This document shows, one piece after another, positions 27,533 to 39,735 of a DNA stretch of 42,665 bases; position 1 is the first letter of the stretch; each line of letters begins with the position of its first letter. The position numbers were made by a program, and so were the translations under genes. Source of the DNA: Crenothrix polyspora (lineage in GTDB: Bacteria > Pseudomonadota > Gammaproteobacteria > Methylococcales > Methylomonadaceae); assembly GCA_945902915.1 (NCBI GenBank), contig CAMDNJ010000009.1, positions 1-42,665 of the forward strand. The letters are read 5' to 3'. The notes under the pieces are model-generated. The model did not search any database and had not been told where the DNA came from. It saw only the letters and a program-made list of their open reading frames with translations.

Positions 27533-28036
27533 ATGGCCACTATCAGTTTTCAAGGCAAACCATTGAACACTTCAGGTGAACTACCTGCATTGGGCAGCAA
27601 AGCCCCCGACTTTTCATTAACGACTAATAAATTAACCGATGTGTCACTGGCAACTTATGCAGGTCAAAAGAAGATATTGACCATCGTGCCTAGCTTAGAC
27701 ACACCGACTTGCGCGGCCTCTACCCGTAAATTTAACGAAAAAGCTTCACACTTGTACCATACCGTGGTCTTGGTGATTTCTGCTGACTTGCCGTTTGCAC
27801 AGTGTCGTTTTTGTGAAATAGAAGGTTTAAAAGATGTCATTCCCTTATCCACTTTTCGTTCATCATTTGCTGAAGATTACGGTGTAAAACTGCTAGATAC
27901 CTTTCTAGCAGGTTTAACCGCTAGAGCTATCGTGATTATCGATGAGCATGATACGGTTATTTATAGCCAATTAGTTCACGAACTCGCAGACGAACCCGAT
28001 TACGAACACGCTTTAGCGGCACTGCATAATCTTTAA
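27533..28036 (+). CDS. tpx: thiol peroxidase Tpx
   Basis: Tpx is an atypical two-cysteine peroxiredoxin, typically periplasm-facing or cytoplasmic, that reduces lipid hydroperoxides with thioredoxin. The 167-residue protein has the peroxidatic Cys60 in LDTPTCA and the resolving Cys94 in FAQCRFC (Cys91 is an extra one), and the family start ISFQGKPLNTSGELP. Length and all blocks are normal. It is flanked by a der-side hairpin and by an inverted repeat, so it is probably its own unit. Confidence 0.96.
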   Translation: MATISFQGKPLNTSGELPALGSKAPDFSLTTNKLTDVSLATYAGQKKILTIVPSLDTPTCAASTRKFNEKASHLYHTVVLVISADLPFAQCRFCEIEGLKDVIPLSTFRSSFAEDYGVKLLDTFLAGLTARAIVIIDEHDTVIYSQLVHELADEPDYEHALAALHNL

Positions 28037-28065
28037 AATCGAGGCTGTAAGAAGTTTTGTGTTAA

Positions 28066-28115
28066 TAGTCATTTCTAGGGCATTTTAGTTTTCTAAAAAC
28101 AATTAGAAATGACTA
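28066..28115. repeat. nested inverted repeat after tpx
   Basis: TAGTCATTTCTA at 28066-28077 is an exact inverse of TAGAAATGACTA at 28104-28115. Inside it TTTTAG (28083-28088) pairs with CTAAAA (28093-28098) across TTTT. The nested shape, 30 bp past the tpx stop, could be a terminator or a small mobile-repeat remnant. The gap 28037-28240 holds nothing else but the PAP2 leader. Confidence 0.5.
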
Positions 28116-28200
28116 CAAGAAAAGTCATAACTTATGAGCTTGAAAAAATAGTAGTTATAGTATAATAAGTAAAAGTACTTACGTGATTTTTTACCCCACA

Positions 28201-28243
28201 ATAAATCACACATTAGCAATAGACCTTATAAGGTTAAGTTATG
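28201..28243 (+). repeat. duplicated leader of the first PAP2 gene
   Basis: The 43 bases before and including the first PAP2 start match those before the second PAP2 gene (29018-29060) at 35 of 43 positions, including the shared ATAAATCA and TATAAGGTTAAGT. The AAGG serves as ribosome site in both. The tandem copy therefore included the leader, not only the coding part. Confidence 0.7.
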
Positions 28244-28942
28244 CAAAAAGCAGCTATAAAAGATTGGGCCACACCGATTGCTGTTCTTCTCGTCCTCACT
28301 GTTTTGTTTCGGATCTTTCCTTGGGATCTCCAGTTGCAATCAGCATTTTATCAAATCGAAAACGGCTGGTGGTTTTTGGAAGAGCATTTCCTTATCATCC
28401 TACTCGATAAGTACGGATACATACCTGCTTTGATAATGTCGCTACTCTCAGCATTTGTTCTTATCGCCGGATTTCGACGTTTCCGATTTGAAAAATTCAG
28501 AAAGATCGCCCTACTGTTTCTCCTGACCTTAGCGATCGGGCCAGGGTTATTTGTCCATGGGGTCTTTAAAGAACATTGGGGAAGACCACGTCCCCACGAT
28601 ATCGTGGAATTCGGAGGTACTTTTGCTCATAAGGAAGTTCTCCAGCCTAGTTCTGGCAGGGGAAAATCATTTCCAAGCGGGCACGCTTCCTTGGGTTTTA
28701 TACTCCTAGTCCCCTATTTTTTTCTTAGAAAAGCAAACCGCAAAATAGCCCTTAGTTTTCTCGCACTTGGACTCTGTTACGGAACACTGAGGGGACTGGG
28801 TCGCATGGCCCAAGGCGCACATTTCGCAAGTGATGTCCTTTGGTCCGGTGGCTTAGTATATCTGAGCGGACTAGGGATGTATTACCTACTTCGAATGAAC
28901 AAAAACATTTACTGGACTTCGGGCCAAAACTTAAGGGATTGA
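28241..28942 (+). CDS. PAP2-family membrane phosphatase, copy 1
   Basis: The 233-residue protein is a PAP2/haloperoxidase-superfamily phosphatase, of the kind that removes phosphate from membrane lipids or lipid carriers such as undecaprenyl pyrophosphate, phosphatidic acid or lipid A. All three catalytic motifs are present: K110-x6-RP (KEHWGRPRP), PSGH at 145-148, and R188-x5-H194-x3-D198 (GRMAQGAHFASD). About six membrane segments are spread over residues 12-220. The next gene downstream is a close paralogue. Codon choice looks richer in CTC, ATC and GGA than in neighbours, which hints at acquisition, but this is by eye. The substrate cannot be told from sequence. Confidence 0.85.
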   Translation: MQKAAIKDWATPIAVLLVLTVLFRIFPWDLQLQSAFYQIENGWWFLEEHFLIILLDKYGYIPALIMSLLSAFVLIAGFRRFRFEKFRKIALLFLLTLAIGPGLFVHGVFKEHWGRPRPHDIVEFGGTFAHKEVLQPSSGRGKSFPSGHASLGFILLVPYFFLRKANRKIALSFLALGLCYGTLRGLGRMAQGAHFASDVLWSGGLVYLSGLGMYYLLRMNKNIYWTSGQNLRD

Positions 28943-29017
28943 TCACCATAGAATTTTGTGTCAAAGTCAAATAAGCTAAGGCCGATTAACTTAAGTTTTT
29001 TGTAAAATAAACTAGCT

Positions 29018-29060
29018 ATAAATCATATATTACCAATAAGCGCTATAAGGTTAAGTCATG
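29018..29060 (+). repeat. duplicated leader of the second PAP2 gene
   Basis: This is the second copy of the leader described at 28201-28243 (35 of 43 positions match) and ends at the ATG of the second PAP2 gene. Confidence 0.7.
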
Positions 29061-29756
29061 CTAAAAGCTGCCACAAAAGATTGGCTCATACCGATTACTG
29101 TTCTCCTGATCCTCACCATCCTGTTTCGAATCTTTCCTTGGGATCTACAGTGGCAGGCAGCTTTTTATACAACAGGAAACGGATGGTTTGCCAAAGAACC
29201 TGGCTTTTGGATCAGTCTATATACCTACGGATACATCCCTGCGTTGCTTATGCTTGCAATCTCGGCATTTGTTCTTATCACCGGATTCTGGGTTTTTCGA
29301 TTCAAGAAATTCAGGAAGATCGCCCTGCTGCTGCTGCTAACCATGGCGATCGGGCCGGGGCTCTTTGTCAATCTGGTCTTTAAAGATAACTGGGGAAGGA
29401 CGCGTCCTCGTGATGTCGTGGAATTCGGTGGCACCATGCCTTATTATGCAGTTCTCGAGCCTAGTCCAGGCAAGGGAAAATCATTTCCAAGCGGGCACGC
29501 CTCAATAGCTTTTTTTCTCTTTATCCCCTATTTATTTCTTCGAAAAACTCACCGAAAAACGGCTCTTAGTTTTCTCGCGCTTGGGCTCAGTTACGGAACA
29601 CTGGTGGGGATCGGTCGTATGGTTCAAGGCGGACATTTTGCAAGTGATGTCATCTGGTCCGGTGGCATGGTTTATCTCTCCGGACTTGGAATGTATTATC
29701 TACTTCGAATGGACAAAAATATTTACTGGGCTTCGAGTAAAAAAATACAGGACTGA
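29058..29756 (+). CDS. PAP2-family membrane phosphatase, copy 2
   Basis: The 232-residue paralogue of the preceding gene keeps every catalytic residue: K109-x6-RP (KDNWGRTRP), PSGH at 144-147, and R187-x5-H193-x3-D197. Long stretches such as FRIFPWDLQ, GKGKSFPSGHAS and ALSFLALG are nearly the same as in copy 1, while the loop at about 36-60 and the 125-140 segment differ. That suggests a duplication followed by divergence of the substrate-facing parts. The gap between the two copies is 115 bp. It converges on trmB. Both genes look intact, and I cannot tell whether they have different substrates. Confidence 0.85.
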   Translation: MLKAATKDWLIPITVLLILTILFRIFPWDLQWQAAFYTTGNGWFAKEPGFWISLYTYGYIPALLMLAISAFVLITGFWVFRFKKFRKIALLLLLTMAIGPGLFVNLVFKDNWGRTRPRDVVEFGGTMPYYAVLEPSPGKGKSFPSGHASIAFFLFIPYLFLRKTHRKTALSFLALGLSYGTLVGIGRMVQGGHFASDVIWSGGMVYLSGLGMYYLLRMDKNIYWASSKKIQD

Positions 29757-29857
29757 TACGATCCAGCGTATAAAGGCATCCAAAACTTTCGCTTCAATCT
29801 AAGCCTTAGAGACACTTGCTTGTTCGGGATTATGCCCGTCATAGTTTATTTTTCAAA

Positions 29858-30547
29858 TTATACTTTACGAAATATCAAATCCCAGACGCCATGACCTAAG
29901 CGTAAACCACGTTGTTCAAACTTGGTGAGCGGACGATAGTCTGGGCGTTCACAATAATCTTGACTAAGACTGGTATTTTTTAAACCCTCGCTGGCCGATA
30001 AAACCTCCAACATGGACTCGGCATAATGCTGCCAATCGGTTGCGGCATGAAAATAGCCGCCCACTTGCAGCTTTTTATTCAATAAATCGACAAAACTGGG
30101 CCGTACTATACGACGCTTATGATGTTTCTTTTTATGCCAGGGATCAGGAAAAAATAAATGCAGGCCAGCTAGGCTATGATCTGGTAGTTTTTGTTCTAAA
30201 ATTTCAATCGCATCATGGCAATAAACCCTAACATTCGTTAAAGCTTGCTCATGTAACAATATCAGTAAATGACCTACACCCGGCTTATGAACTTCAATAC
30301 CAATATAATCATGATCTGGATTAGCGGCAGCCATTTTGGCTAGGCTATCACCATTACCAAAACCGATCTCTACAATCAATGGCGCTTGGCGACCAAATAC
30401 CTTACTAAAGTCGTAATCTACCTCGGGCTCTAAACCATATTGAGGCCAATACTGATCCAAGGCGACTTCCTGCCCAGGCGTAAGACGCCCTTGCCTACGA
30501 ATGAAACTACGAATTCTTTGGGGCAGCGTTTGAGCTATGTCGGTCAT
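29858..30547 (-). CDS. trmB: tRNA (guanine-N7-)-methyltransferase
   Basis: TrmB methylates guanine-46 of tRNA using S-adenosylmethionine. The 229-residue protein has the SAM-binding EIGFGNGDS (60-68), [17 protein letters not shown], the family's signature, and a C-terminal [17 protein letters not shown] end. It begins 2 bp after the thiSG stop in the same orientation, so it is the last gene of the aroG-thiSG-trmB operon. Confidence 0.95.
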
Positions 30548-34718: not shown

Positions 34719-35138
34719 TTAGTCATTTTGTAAATCTTGTCCCGCTTTTTGCAAAAATTCAGTTAAAAACTGGTAATGACGCTCTGCAAGTACTTGCTGA
34801 AGTAACTCACTATCAATCGTTAAATAATCGTGCACTAAGGCATTGCGCATACCGATGATTTTTCGCCATTTTTTTAATTCTTCTAGTGATACTTTTTGTA
34901 GCTCAGCTAGTTTATTAAAATTTTCGTAAGCCTCTAAAGGCTGATTTTTGCCTGTAGCTTTTAACCAATGCTTTGCCACACCAATACAAGACTCAATCAA
35001 TACTTGTAAAACTCTTTCCGCCGCTAGTCGCTCAATACGATTAAAAGGACGCTGTACCGCAATACTGGCTAAATTGTCCAAATCTTCTAAACATTCGCAG
35101 CGATGTTGCTCAATAGCGATAAGATATTCTTTTAACAT
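34719..35138 (-). CDS. hepT: HepT-like ribonuclease toxin
   Basis: HepT is a HEPN-family ribonuclease, toxic in the free state. The protein is helical with the catalytic motif R-x4-H-x-Y (RNALVHDY) near its last third. I place the start at the ATG at 35138 because GGAA lies ten bases upstream; a GTG at 35153 in the same frame would give 144 residues and overlap mntA by 10 bp. It directly follows mntA on the same strand, the standard order for the MntA-HepT toxin-antitoxin system. The gene is intact. Confidence 0.85.
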   Translation of the reverse strand: MLKEYLIAIEQHRCECLEDLDNLASIAVQRPFNRIERLAAERVLQVLIESCIGVAKHWLKATGKNQPLEAYENFNKLAELQKVSLEELKKWRKIIGMRNALVHDYLTIDSELLQQVLAERHYQFLTEFLQKAGQDLQND

Positions 35139-35143
35139 CAGCT

Positions 35144-35554
35144 TCAGTTCCACAGTTGCAAAGGATATTCATGAACAGGCGGGGTGAAATCTATTTCCAT
35201 ACGACTACCAATTCGACGCGTTTCTTGCCATAACCTTCTTTCATCACTGCAATACAACACACAATCTAATTCAATTATTTGCCATGCCAAGGGAATAGGT
35301 GCTTGATTAATATCAACAATGGATAGTTTAAAGTCTTTCAAACCTAGTGCTTGTTGCCAGTCTAATGCCAAACACTCTGGTCTTAAGCGTTTCTCCAGCG
35401 CATCGTTCTTAATAAAGGATTTAAAAGCGACAGCAATATCATAATCACTGTATATATTGGCAAGCCCTTTAACGCGGGAACCATAAAGCCAGACAATAGC
35501 AATATCTGAGTTTTGTCTGGCTAATTCAATCATCGCTGTTTGTATGCTATCCAT
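35144..35554 (-). CDS. mntA: MntA antitoxin, minimal nucleotidyltransferase
   Basis: MntA neutralises HepT by adding AMP groups to it. The product, 136 residues from the ATG at 35554 (the frame is open to a TTG at 35581), is a minimal nucleotidyltransferase with the family motif GS-x10-D-x-D (GSRVKGLANIYSDYD). Its stop lies a few bases before the hepT start, so the pair is co-translated. Upstream is the non-coding block at 35.6-37.5 kb. Such pairs are common on chromosomes and mobile elements of environmental bacteria. Confidence 0.87.
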   Translation of the reverse strand: MDSIQTAMIELARQNSDIAIVWLYGSRVKGLANIYSDYDIAVAFKSFIKNDALEKRLRPECLALDWQQALGLKDFKLSIVDINQAPIPLAWQIIELDCVLYCSDERRLWQETRRIGSRMEIDFTPPVHEYPLQLWN

Positions 35555-35626
35555 ATTGCAAAGGCCGTGTTTATTCTTCAATGGTTAGCTAAAAGGAATA
35601 TGGCTTTGAACTGCGTCATAGTTAGT

Positions 35627-35713
35627 AGGATGGGTAGAGCGATAGCGAAACCCATTAATCACATTGGATGTTTATGATGGGTTTCAGGTTTCGGCTATTG
35701 CCTCTAGCCATCT
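35627..35713. repeat. REP-like imperfect hairpin
   Basis: Left arm 35627-35655 (AGGATGGGTAGAGCGATAGC and onward to AACCCAT) pairs imperfectly with the right arm at 35677-35713, which reads the inverse with a seven-base insertion. The ATGGGT-GAGC-GAAACCCAT core resembles a widespread intergenic palindrome family. It sits 40-130 bp upstream of mntA. Confidence 0.55.
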
Positions 35714-36419
35714 TATGGATTGCATTTTTGTTAGGACGTAATAAGTTGTGCTACATAAATGAATTTTAAGTTATTTTACATTTTAATAAATGATTAGACA
35801 AAAGAATGATGTAATGTTTTGCGTCAATTAGGTTGTCTAATTAGTGTTAGGATGTGATAAAAACAGGCAAATGACACATATATCAGAAACGGAGATGCTA
35901 AAAAATATGGTTTCAATCAAACTTACAACTTCTAACTTTAGGTTTGCTAGATTTCAGTTTTTTGGATATAACAGCCTTAGGTGCACTTTTCTGGACATCA
36001 TTATGCACCAATTGCTCTGTGATTAAAAAGTAAGCAGTCCGTGTTTCGACAGATAATAATGACACGTTTAAAAAACATAGCCTAGGCAGTGGCTTGTTGT
36101 AAATCGAAGAAAAAAATCCCCAGCCCATGTGTTGCTTTATAAGTTGCCAGCGGAGCATCTACCAATTTATTTTCTCTTTAAAAAATCACTGCGCTGTCCG
36201 ATAGCTTACGCCTTTTTCAGTCCAACGCGACAGACCTCGCATCGTTACGCGACCCGTCATCGACAACATAACATCAATAATCAGGGTCATCTGTTTAGAG
36301 TGCGTCCTGTTAAGAGTGGACTCAACGTGCTTAGTATTGCTATGATTTCGCTCATGGCCAGTTTCGGTGGGAATGCTTTGTCAGAAAATGTATTCTGGCC
36401 ATTCTCCTTTCTTCGATAT
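35714..36419. other. region without a convincing gene
   Basis: Three short frames cross this stretch: plus 35844-36026, minus 35913-36158 and plus 36129-36455. None has a good ribosome site or a recognised motif. The plus frame ends with a hydrophobic segment (LSIAMISLMASFGG) before NALSEN that resembles a signal peptide, which could be the start of a lost exported protein. I list it as unresolved. Confidence 0.4.
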
Positions 36420-36703
36420 TTAAAAATCACTCATGCCGATTGGCGAAGGTATTGAACCATTCGTTACTATATTAACGTAGCCCGCTAAGTCTCTAAACAA
36501 GTCAGCTGTGATTCTTTCTTTATCATTTCTCATAGCAATATCACTATGCGTACCGTCTTTTACTGCTAACACGGCACTTTCAAAATCATCAACGCTTGCT
36601 TTAATTGTCGCTAGGGGTACTGGAAGATTGGGGAAGATACTAGTATCAGCCAGTTGAATGGCAATATTCCTATAAAAAGCCAGATCATATTATAAGAAGT
36701 CAT
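36420..36703 (-). pseudogene. frameshifted, truncated gene remnant
   Basis: On the minus strand an uninterrupted frame of 89 codons runs from 36689 to a stop at 36420, reading YDLAFYRNIAIQL, FPNLPVPLATIKASVDDF and RNDKERITADLFRDLAGYV. It looks like a real protein: regular helix pattern and no low complexity. It has no start codon; the plausible ATG at 36703 (MTSYN) is in another frame, so a one-base frameshift near 36685 seems likely. The segment resembles the N-terminus of hypothetical proteins with C-terminal fibronectin-like domains, but the expected C-terminus is absent. This similarity is from memory and unverified. Confidence 0.5.
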
Positions 36704-37525
36704 TAATAAAAAGATATTTTTATAACTTTAACCTTTAAAATTAGTTTCTTATAATCATCACTTTAAAAACGAACTGCCTGTATTGCTTAAACATTTTAGA
36801 TAGAAAACCCCGAAAAACCCCTTTTACTTAAGTAATACAGGCAATTAATCGCATTAATTTTTCAAATACTCGCCAGAAAACTAATAATAAATCTCTAAAA
36901 ACACTAAATACTTTTAAAGGAAATATTTTTAAAAGAGCGACTTCTGGCATTATTTTAATAACTTTTATTTCTCTTTAACGAAAAGTTATTTTTTCTTTTA
37001 AAACATAACTTCTTCGTTAAAGAACAAGCTATTTATTTCTTGAAAAACTCAGAATTACTTTTGATAAAACTAAAGTTTAATATCGAATTTGCAAAATTCA
37101 ATGTTGAATCAGCGAAGTTCGACAATAGTCAGGCGACTTTCCCCAAGTAATAAAAAAAAATTCCTTAACCAAAAGCCAGTATTAAATAACTAAAAAGCAA
37201 AGTTGCTTAAGCAAAAGATGTTTTTGCTTAACTAAAAAGCAGTTATTTAAAATAAATTTAAACTATTCAAATTAGAATAGGTTACGACTGACAGCAAAAA
37301 AGGATCGTACTTCTTAACTGACAGCCAGATTTTAATAACTAAAAAGCAAAATAGTTATTAAAAAACGCTTTTTAGTAAAGAAAAAATGCCTAGTCGAATA
37401 TAAAAAGCAAAAATATCAAAACAAACCGCCTAAAACGAGGTGGGCTAGCTAGATAGGATGCTTACTTTTCGTTACAGATATTATATATCGATCGAATAAG
37501 ATCATGGAATTGCTGTCAATAACGA
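36704..37525. other. AT-rich block of alternative hairpins and direct repeats
   Basis: No gene is visible. Hairpins: TGCCTGTATTGCTTAA at 36775-36790 pairs with 36828-36843 (15 of 16); AATAACTTTT (36957-36966) with AAAAGTTATT (36981-36990); CTTTAACGAA (36973-36982) with TTCGTTAAAG (37013-37022), so the last two compete; CTAAAAAGC (37339-37347) with GCTTTTTAG (37367-37375); AATAACTA with TAGTTATT (37334-37359). Direct repeats: TAACTAAAAAGC occurs near 37188, 37229 and 37336, and a longer unit starting GCCAG and ending AAAAAGCAAA recurs at about 37175 and 37324, 150 bp apart. There is no coding signal and no tRNA or insertion sequence. Confidence 0.6.
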
Positions 37526-38593
37526 TTAATTTCGCATTCGATTGACTGAATAAAGCGCTAGCATCAACATGGTTAAAGACGGGGTAAAAGCAATTAAAGG
37601 CGGATTGAGGTCATAAATCAAACCTAGATGCCCCACAACTTCATCAACAATATTAAAGCCCATACCGATGACTATACCTATCATCATACGTTCACCTACA
37701 CTGACGCCCCGTTTAACGCTAATAATAAAAGGTGCCGATAACAACAGCATCATTAGTATAACTAAGGGATTAACAATTCGCGCCCAAAAAGCTAATTCAA
37801 AAGCATGTGATTTCTGATGATTTTTCTTCAAAAAATCAATATGGCGGCTTAAATCCACGAAGGTTAAATAATTTGGATTAATAGCCACGCTCTTTAGCAA
37901 ATTAGGCGCTATTGAAGTCAACCAAAGTAAATGCTCTTGCTTACTCACTAGCATTTGCTGAGTTGAAATGACCGAGGTTTTAATATTTGTAAACTCCCAT
38001 TGTTGATTACCTAGAAAAACGGCTGATTCTGCATGCAAAGCCTGCTGTAACTGTTGCTGCTCATTTAACTCATAAATATTGATATCAACTAGATGATGGT
38101 CATCAATAATCTCACGCACATTGATAAACTTTTTGCCTTCACGTAACCAAATATCATAATCAGAATTAATTTGTAGCTGTTGATGCTGGGCCGTTAGCCG
38201 CAGGTTTTTAGCTAGGCGTTCAGTGATGGGCACTACAAATTCACCTACCAATATTGATGTAATCACCAACACCACACCGGCCAACATAACCGCTCTTATA
38301 ATCCCAAAGATAGAAAGCCCTGCAGCTCTCATAGCAATAAGCTCACGATTATTACCCATTGCCCCTAGTATAAATAAACTGCCCAATAGGCCAGAGGCGG
38401 GCACTAATTCACAGAAAATACCTGGTGATAATAAGGCAATAAAATAAAAAATTTCTTTTAGGCCATAAGATTCCGTCATATCAGGTAATTCATCACTAAA
38501 GGTAAATAAATTAAATAACATCAATAATAATATGACGGCAACAAAAGCACCCTTAAGCACTTCTCTGACAATATAGCTTGTTAATACATTCAC
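37526..38593 (-). CDS. lptG: LPS export permease LptG
   Basis: LptG and LptF form the membrane part of the LptB2FG transporter that extracts lipopolysaccharide from the inner membrane. The 355-residue protein has three N-terminal membrane segments (from about 15 to 120, SPGIFCELVPASGLLGSL), a periplasmic beta-jellyroll region and three C-terminal segments (SAPFIISVKRGVSVGERMMIG region). It begins at a GTG at 38593 overlapping the lptF stop (GTGA). The long AT-rich block follows its end, so no downstream gene depends on it. The gene that lptFG often adjoins, pepA, is absent. Confidence 0.93.
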   Translation of the reverse strand: MNVLTSYIVREVLKGAFVAVILLLMLFNLFTFSDELPDMTESYGLKEIFYFIALLSPGIFCELVPASGLLGSLFILGAMGNNRELIAMRAAGLSIFGIIRAVMLAGVVLVITSILVGEFVVPITERLAKNLRLTAQHQQLQINSDYDIWLREGKKFINVREIIDDHHLVDINIYELNEQQQLQQALHAESAVFLGNQQWEFTNIKTSVISTQQMLVSKQEHLLWLTSIAPNLLKSVAINPNYLTFVDLSRHIDFLKKNHQKSHAFELAFWARIVNPLVILMMLLLSAPFIISVKRGVSVGERMMIGIVIGMGFNIVDEVVGHLGLIYDLNPPLIAFTPSLTMLMLALYSVNRMRN

Positions 38594-39735
38594 TTAAGTA
38601 CCTGGCCTTTTATTTTTAAAACCAACCATTGCCAACTATATAAACGAGCCAATAAAAGACTACCTATTAAAAACAACAGTACATTAACTCCAGCACCTCC
38701 GAGCCAAGTCGGAATAACACCATTAGTGACCCAGCCTTGACTGAGGCGAGTAAGATTTCCATAAGTAAAGTATATTAAAAATCCGGCAGCCATGTTTCCA
38801 TAAACACCACCTCTAGGCGAAATTTGTGCTAAAGGCACAGCAATGAAACTTAATAATAAAGCACCCATAGGTATAGAAAGCCGATGCTGTAGCTCAGCAA
38901 TATAAGCTTTAGTATGCTTCTGCCATAATGAATACGTTGAAACAGTGTGTATATGAATAGAGCTACGATTGGGTATTTTGGTTTCCAATCTAACTGCATA
39001 TTCAGCAAATTGTTCGATAACATAATCTAAATTACCAGGCTGGCCTTTTATGCGTTCACCCTGTTCAAATATAATATAACGGCCATCCGTTGAATCTTCT
39101 ATTCTAGCGACTGCTGAAGTTATTACACTGACATCCCTCTTGTCGTGTTCTAAACTTTGTACAAAAACCTCATGCATTTTTTTATCAGCATCAATCGTTT
39201 CCACGTAGAAAACTAAATCGCCTGCACTATATTCACTAAACTTACCTGCTGCTATACCTCTGGTTTCAGAAGTCTCTTCATCGTGTAATGCCAGCGTAAG
39301 TACTCTAGCCTCTGCCCAAGGCGCAGCAAACAATGACATTGCTACAGCCAAAAGACTAACGGGAAAAACCAATAAAAATACCGCTCTATAAATAACACCA
39401 GAACCACCGCCTGCCGAAGAAACAGCCGCCATTTCATGGTCTCTGTACATTCTACCCAACACCATCAAAACGGCTAAAAATAAAGCGGCAGGTAATAACT
39501 CTGCGATAGTCACGATTGTTTTTAGCCCCAGAATACTCAACAATGTTTCATTGGAAACTTGGCCGCTAATAGCCTGATCAAGAACACGTATAAATAGCCG
39601 ACTAACGATAATCACGACAAGAACTGATAAACCTCCTAAAAAAGTCTTCAGCAAGTCCTGAACGACCATTTTATCAAGAACGGTAATCCATGGTCGCGCT
39701 GTCTTTTTACGAGCTTTAGCCTCATCTTTCCTCAA
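38590..39735 (-). CDS. lptF: LPS export permease LptF
   Basis: LptF is the partner of LptG; the pair passes lipopolysaccharide from the inner membrane to LptC. The 381-residue protein has the same layout: three N-terminal segments, a periplasmic domain around 140-270 and C-terminal segments with IAVPLAQISPRGGVYGNMAAGFLIYF split across the membrane. The TTG at 39735 is supported by GGAGAG eight bases upstream; the ATG at 39669 is an alternative and would drop a basic N-terminal tail of 22 residues. Its stop overlaps the lptG start. Confidence 0.92.
   Translation of the reverse strand: MRKDEAKARKKTARPWITVLDKMVVQDLLKTFLGGLSVLVVIIVSRLFIRVLDQAISGQVSNETLLSILGLKTIVTIAELLPAALFLAVLMVLGRMYRDHEMAAVSSAGGGSGVIYRAVFLLVFPVSLLAVAMSLFAAPWAEARVLTLALHDEETSETRGIAAGKFSEYSAGDLVFYVETIDADKKMHEVFVQSLEHDKRDVSVITSAVARIEDSTDGRYIIFEQGERIKGQPGNLDYVIEQFAEYAVRLETKIPNRSSIHIHTVSTYSLWQKHTKAYIAELQHRLSIPMGALLLSFIAVPLAQISPRGGVYGNMAAGFLIYFTYGNLTRLSQGWVTNGVIPTWLGGAGVNVLLFLIGSLLLARLYSWQWLVLKIKGQVLK

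Follow-up and report, generated by a model that had tools for sequence, protein, structure and literature searches.

On balance, and with moderate confidence, we conclude that Crenothrix polyspora acquired by horizontal transfer a tandem pair of LpxF-like PAP2 phosphatase genes, which arrived already diverged at a variable locus flanked by tpx and trmB and whose likeliest substrate is lipid A. The pair lies in the window, that is, the whole stretch of DNA that was analysed (42,665 nucleotides), which corresponds to contig C9 of a draft genome of 2.7 Mb, 97% complete and assembled in 209 contigs (hereafter, the host or G000). Both the kind of enzyme and the process are already known; the interest of the case, a modest one for most readers, lies in the two genes having probably arrived together and in the changes found in copy 1. 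If this reading is right, genes for lipid A remodelling move between environmental bacteria as a diverged tandem pair, and their destination is a core-gene interval that swaps cargo among close species. Among the papers listed by the nearest literature searches, none dealt with such a pair, judged by titles.

The PAP2 pair and its relatives

Copy 1 (28241-28942, + strand) and copy 2 (29058-29756, + strand) are intact open reading frames encoding proteins of 233 and 232 aa, respectively. The left neighbour is tpx (27533-28036, + strand) and the right neighbour is trmB (29858-30547, - strand); these names, like those of the other core genes in the window, come from reading the sequences by eye. 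Both proteins belong to the PAP2 family PF01569, with scores of 77.2 bits for copy 1 and 79.3 bits for copy 2 against a gathering cut-off of 27.2 (E-values of 1.3e-21 and 2.8e-22, respectively), and they are identical at 163 of 233 aligned columns. As the original prediction held, all catalytic residues are present in both members of the tandem, with KX6RP, PSGH and RX5HX3D found in each. In copy 1 numbering, the alignment places them at K110, R117 and P118, at 145-148 (PSGH), and at R188, H194 and D198, with equivalents in copy 2. Following the motif wording in PMC6581854 (KX6RP - PSGH - SRX5HX3D), the leading serine of the third motif is replaced by glycine in both copies.

The similarity of the two genes extends into their upstream regions. 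The leader of copy 1 (28201-28240, + strand), which ends in the Shine-Dalgarno-like AAGGTTAAGTT before the ATG, and that of copy 2 (29018-29057, + strand) are identical at 32 of 40 positions, or at 35 of 43 if the ATG is included, which is the very count given originally. The similarity ends at -40, with identity dropping to 4/10 and then to 2/10 in the blocks further upstream, and the runner-up ungapped match of the leader 40-mer across the whole window, on both strands, reaches 25/40. Taken together, the protein alignment and the leader match show that the tandem is a genuine duplication in which the leaders were copied too, as had been proposed. A related, gapped leader, with the Shine-Dalgarno-like end AAGGTTAAG, precedes the single homologue in G017, another genome of the host's genus; its gapped score was matched by 4 of 2000 shuffles for the copy 1 leader and by none of 2000 for the copy 2 leader. 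Leader identity (80%) is only slightly higher than third-position identity (65.5%; P 0.035). The further suggestion that the duplicated unit carries its own expression signals holds weakly: the common 40-nt stretch includes a Shine-Dalgarno-like AAGG, but no sigma-70-type promoter was found on the + strand by a simple scan, so that the support is limited to a probable ribosome-binding site.

Tree position, profile scores, predicted fold and the gene neighbourhoods of relatives all place the pair in an LpxF-like clade, outside the LpxF equivalog family. The best specific profile for both copies, covering nearly the full length, is NCBIfam LpxF (NF045633), with 106.9 bits for copy 1 and 104.0 bits for copy 2, far below the equivalog cut-off of 400 bits. 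Scores also fall below the cut-offs of NF028538 (PAP2 lipid A phosphatase; 37.2 and 37.7 bits, cut-off 275) and NF028536 (PAP2 near MCR1; 18.9 and 30.7 bits, cut-off 475), as do those of copy 2 for PgpB (NF007975; 22.7 bits, cut-off 261) and for the C55-PP phosphatase PRK11837 (NF008813; 15.8 bits, cut-off 229), two profiles for which copy 1 is unlisted at E 0.1. All 37 members of alignment A3 match NF045633, which is the best model for the two copies and for the 10 other members scanned singly. One relative, L100, which comes from the host's class, exceeds the LpxF cut-off (412 vs 400 bits) and is the sole row tested to do so.

The original prediction had left it to a PAP2 tree to place the copies, and this tree groups them within the LpxF-like clade. 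Among 42 sequences, the 37 LpxF-like proteins, including L100, branch apart from PgpB, LpxT and YbjG of E. coli and from the host's two other PAP2 proteins (96/99*), the outgroup branches being long and flagged as such by the tool. Copy 1, copy 2 and the G017 protein form a clade of their own in two trees (100/99* and 100/100*). The trees and the alignments A3 and A4 exclude two partial sequences (L012, L013), duplicate loci and relatives weaker than E 1e-8 (e.g. L014-L016, L018). At the level of the order, E 1e-15 is reached by matches in 78 of 301 genomes. Counts in the tree and neighbourhood analyses refer to the fetched loci and, since these were taken best first, favour nearer relatives. 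AlphaFold models of the two copies are of equal confidence (pLDDT 91.5 and 91.9) and each displays, as read by eye, six long membrane helices in the six-helix PAP2 fold. The best PDB matches of the copy 2 model are 5JKI (Z 14.7), followed by Aquifex LpxE (6EBU, Z 12.7); Foldseek returned no match at E 0.001 or better.

We surveyed the neighbourhoods of 34 more distant relatives, many of them at loci with only ~1.5 kb of flank and some with less. In 18 of the 34, a PMT_2-type gene similar to that of G007 is encoded on the same strand, no more than 46 bp from the aligned part; in three, lptG lies upstream on the same strand (at distances to that part of 314, 27 and -9 bp); and in the remaining 13, neither gene is found within 600 bp. 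The Pfam names used in this survey derive from two PMT_2 genes and one lptG, and the PMT_2 genes are presumably GT39 members of the ArnT- or Rgt-like kind, labels given by eye. All 18 PMT_2-linked sequences fall among the 22 from the host's own family. The three lptG-linked sequences are the three examined from family f70, in each of which the PAP2 gene comes after lptG in the same orientation (L093:1504-2187, L094:1471-2151 and L095:1489-2160), an order that suggests a link to LPS export; in one genome of this family, G497, GT9 and PMT_2 genes are close by as well. The PAP2 gene of G017 adjoins lptF-lptG in convergent orientation. A PMT_2/GT39 query, run with no positive control, had no match in any of the seven genomes searched, G000 and G017 included. 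In Rhizobium-type lipid A, dephosphorylation by LpxE/LpxF is described together with the galacturonic acid transferase RgtD acting at 4', according to PMC7663294, and the PMT_2 pairing of the relatives may, as a lead, be likened to this arrangement.

The position within the LpxF-like clade bears on the possibility that the two proteins are general envelope lipid phosphatases, engaged in undecaprenyl pyrophosphate recycling or phosphatidylglycerophosphate (PGP) dephosphorylation and not in lipid A modification. This is a less probable reading, though one to be taken seriously: the top structural match is a PGP phosphatase, ranking above LpxE, and Aquifex LpxE, as stated in PMC6581854, acts on C55-PP and PGP besides lipid A, so that the main substrate may be other than lipid A. 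By contrast, the sequences group as LpxF-like and away from PgpB and YbjG, albeit across long outgroup branches, the LpxF profile scores far above PgpB and PRK11837, relatives adjoin lptG or PMT_2 genes, and the host's two other PAP2 proteins could do such work. Lipid A is in our view most likely the substrate on which the pair acts.

Foreign codon usage and the age of the duplication

The two genes are the most atypical in codon usage among 35 genes of the window (Z -9.2 and -8.0, the next being -3.8), where the other 33 were hand-picked from the list of open reading frames. The codon comparison proposed in the original prediction therefore bears out the suspicion that codon choice is unlike that of the neighbours, and marks the pair as clearly foreign. 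The codons CTC (Leu), GGA (Gly) and ATC (Ile) are used in excess, and TTA is under-used. When genomes are compared, the host copies (Z -8.3 and -8.7) are followed by the G017 copy with an intermediate value (-4.4), PMT_2-linked relatives in three members of the genus are nearer to typical (-1.3 to -2.8), and five G017 core genes are codon-typical (-0.2 to 1.2).

Matches at E 1e-44 occur in only two of the 237 genomes of the host family, namely, the host and G017. The single G017 copy, located beside lptG and nearest to copy 2 (77%), is the sole close relative in this set. No match to the pair at E 1e-3 was obtained in G015, G023, G025, G030 or G019, and TrmB of the first four of these genomes is 95-97% identical to that of the host. 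Given that the sole close relative is in G017 and that these four nearer relatives are without the gene, the pair was probably acquired horizontally. At E 1e-30, matches were found in 12 of 369 genomes of the class and in 1 of 398 of the phylum, with the host included in both counts.

The donor was not found. Searches of genome contigs yielded 122 pattern-matching stretches and no relatives with copy 2 alone, and 84 stretches with two relatives (G017's own and one from an Akkermansiaceae MAG, 40%) with alignment A2. Viral contigs gave 90 and 9 stretches in two runs, none of them a relative, plasmids gave 34 records, all below 60% identity, and phages gave three weak records. With a narrow pattern step and whole-genome searches within the phylum, these results are weak evidence of absence.

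A recent duplication, as put forward originally, is rejected by the synonymous divergence of the copies. Their dS of 0.57-0.66 (dN 0.20; dN/dS about 0.30-0.36) is of the same order as the dS of 0.72 between core genes of the host and G017 (six genes, 1985 codons). For copy 2 and the G017 gene, dN is 0.13-0.14 and dS 0.68-0.93 (dN/dS 0.14-0.20), and for copy 1 and the G017 gene the values are 0.19-0.22 and 1.3-1.7, respectively. Both copies are under constraint, judging by dN/dS. Protein trees pair copy 2 with the G017 protein (96/84 and 99/88), but the AU test (p 0.3) allows the two copies to be sisters. Across the first 30 codons, third-position likeness is 0.73 between the copies and 0.47 between copy 2 and G017. 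At the 47 synonymous differences between the copies, GC3 is 0.43 in copy 1 and 0.55 in copy 2 (0.45 in identical codons) vs 0.23-0.46 in the 33 other genes of the window, and a shift towards the host mean is thus not apparent. We infer that the copies probably diverged before reaching the host and would have been transferred as a ready-made pair; since the AU test leaves the sister arrangement standing, this timing depends on the composition of the 47 codons, which are few.

The same data can be set against a different history, in which an ancestor of the group containing the host and G017 acquired the gene family once, and the gene was subsequently duplicated in the host line, moved about, and was lost in G015, G023, G025, G030 and G019. 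In favour of such a scenario, the dS between copy 2 and G017 is like that of core genes, the pair and lptG, the neighbour of the G017 gene, are only 8 kb apart in the window, and the copies may be sisters. We nevertheless consider it less likely, because several losses would be required, the codons of the host copies are far less host-like than those of the G017 copy, and the synonymous differences between the copies are not shifted towards the host mean. Arrival of an already diverged pair is the history that we prefer.

Differences between the copies and proposed activity

Divergence between the copies was originally thought to be concentrated at residues 36-60 and 125-140, in loops possibly facing the substrate. 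The two regions are identical at 12 of 25 and 8 of 16 positions, respectively, that is, at 20/41 vs 143/192 elsewhere (Fisher p 0.002; as low in 5 of 233 circular shifts), a contrast to be read as post hoc, the regions having been chosen by an earlier reader after seeing the data. When the entire TM1-TM2 (26-59) and TM3-TM4 (112-145) loops are considered, the difference is not significant (43/69 vs 120/164, p 0.12), and the concentration is reduced to a tendency. In the AlphaFold models, both regions map to these loops on what appears by eye to be the catalytic side, in agreement with their possible exposure to the substrate.

More specific differences are seen at conserved columns. Copy 1 departs at 2 of the 22 columns that are at least 95% conserved among the 34 other sequences, namely, N106H and G193A, and copy 2 and the G017 protein depart at none. 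Copy 1, copy 2 and G017 depart at 3, 1 and 1 of 30 columns, respectively, with 90% conservation and at 7, 4 and 4 of 40 columns with 80% conservation. By this sequence comparison, copy 1 is altered beside the predicted active site, at columns that its relatives keep. Amino-acid changes of its own outnumber those of copy 2 by 36:15, and third-position changes by 43:23 (Fisher p 0.56); as the imbalance is similar at third positions, faster protein change in copy 1 is not shown, and the counts, which come from a three-sequence comparison that has no root, represent branch lengths. Departures at two near-invariant columns might also be taken as signs of decay, with no separate function left for copy 1, but we find this improbable given its open frame, retained catalytic residues, dN/dS of 0.30-0.36 and a structural model as confident as that of copy 2.

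We propose that the catalytic residues of each enzyme would be located at the helix end that is periplasmic in solved relatives. The likeliest chemistry would be that of a metal-independent PAP2 enzyme, with attack of the histidine on the lipid phosphate and loss of Pi, and the likeliest substrate would be lipid A at the outer face of the inner membrane, prior to Lpt export. Copy 2 would be a typical enzyme of this kind. In copy 1, the changes affect the loop that follows KX6RP, the position four residues ahead of the catalytic Lys and the Gly that immediately precedes the catalytic His, and, because of these changes, it would likely have a changed preference (for position or head group) or reduced activity. 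The phosphate removed may be at the 4' or at another position of lipid A, and the copies may differ in their roles. A more elaborate variant, which we regard as rather doubtful, is that of a ready-made two-enzyme set, in which one of the lipid A phosphates would fall to copy 2, and the other phosphate or another head group to copy 1 with its altered active-site surroundings. If true, one transfer could dephosphorylate lipid A at both positions, and this would take place in a methanotroph where no PMT_2-linked route like that of its genus was detected. The two genes would offer a natural paralogue pair for mapping the specificity of PAP2 lipid phosphatases, with copy 1 positions 106, 128-135 and 193 as the relevant sites.

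The tpx-trmB interval and known systems

The acquired segment extends approximately from 28042 to 29837, bounded by the 3' flanks of tpx and trmB; its ends were set by eye from alignments with the G015 flanks and from synteny, and are uncertain by tens of bases. Where the host has the pair, G015 has a gene for a 157-aa protein, which is present in 17 of 35 genomes of the genus and has no match in the host. The interval in G023 contains the 157-aa gene together with genes for an exosortase and a sigma-54 response regulator and one of the asparagine-synthase type. The trmB gene of G025 and that of G030 adjoin a different gene, judged by eye to be Sel1-like, and the contig examined in either genome showed no tpx. 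In G017, the 157-aa gene is on a different contig, of which the 3.5 kb examined include neither tpx nor der nor trmB. Because the contents differ among G000, G015, G023, G025 and G030, the tpx-trmB interval is a site that exchanges cargo among close species. The conserved flanks also make it very improbable that a foreign fragment was joined into the contig during assembly, as the foreign codon usage and the 209-contig draft might suggest: both flanks keep the G015 gene order on one contig, so that an artefact would take two false joins, both of them intergenic, and the G017 assembly has a relative inside a contig with lptF-lptG.

A mobile element was considered and rejected: no tRNA and no Rfam match were found at the locus, repeated flanks in the genome are absent except for copy 2's leader and matches of 19-28 bases, and no transposase or integrase was noticed by eye among the open reading frames adjoining the pair. 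Near the left end of the segment, 3' of tpx, there is an imperfect, nested palindrome of 50 nt (28066-28115; -18.9 kcal/mol, z -5.1), which has no second long copy in the genome and is possibly a terminator or a remnant. An inversion of the trmB-ansA block behind the host and G017 locations was rejected by eye, since the PAP2 direction, convergent with the next core gene, is unchanged in both genomes.

The nearby lptG region has features of its own. At 34719-35581 (- strand), a HepT-like gene (PF01934) overlaps a nucleotidyltransferase gene (Polbeta) in what we take to be a HEPN/MNT toxin-antitoxin layout. The two genes occupy the slot between ansA and lptG, which measures only 12 bp in G015 and G023. 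Between them and lptG lies a low-GC stretch (35600-37500; 0.27-0.30 at lowest), containing a 218-base match (80%) to the lptG flank in G025. For lptG/lptF (37526-39735), NG86 dS to G015, G023, G025 and G030 is 0.55-0.89, compared with 0.26-0.56 for trmB, thiSG and aroG, and this higher divergence suggests that the lptFG block recombined separately. The exosortase, sigma-54 regulator and asparagine-synthase-type operon between tpx and trmB in G023 (L134:1205-6052) resembles a set with similar lengths and starts, compared by eye, beside lptG in G025 (L137:5281-10210), and like cargo is thus seen at two nearby sites in close species.

Of the known systems, LpxF, the lipid A 4'-phosphatase of NF045633, provides the best profile for the pair, has the same PAP2 motifs and joins it in one tree group through L100. 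The copies differ from it in falling well short of the cut-off of 400 bits (107 and 104 bits) and in forming a tandem pair. The lipid A 1-phosphatase LpxE of Aquifex (6EBU) shares the fold over 152 residues (Z 12.7) and broadly the same tripartite motif, but identity over the aligned part is 19%, and the corresponding profile NF028538 reaches only 37 and 38 bits. The YodM-type PGP phosphatase of Bacillus subtilis (5JKI), the top structural match with Z 14.7 over 187 residues, is 22% identical and comes from a Gram-positive source with no lipid A. The PMT_2/GT39-linked proteins of G005, G007, G010, G021 and G029 fall in the same LpxF-like group, with similar length and the same motif residues. 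They are, however, 33-34% identical to copy 2 in A3 (37-39% in local matches, up to 43% over 132-134 residues), have PCGH where the host copies have PSGH, are paired with a PMT_2 gene and, in the three tested, have codons close to those of their hosts (Z -1.3 to -2.8).
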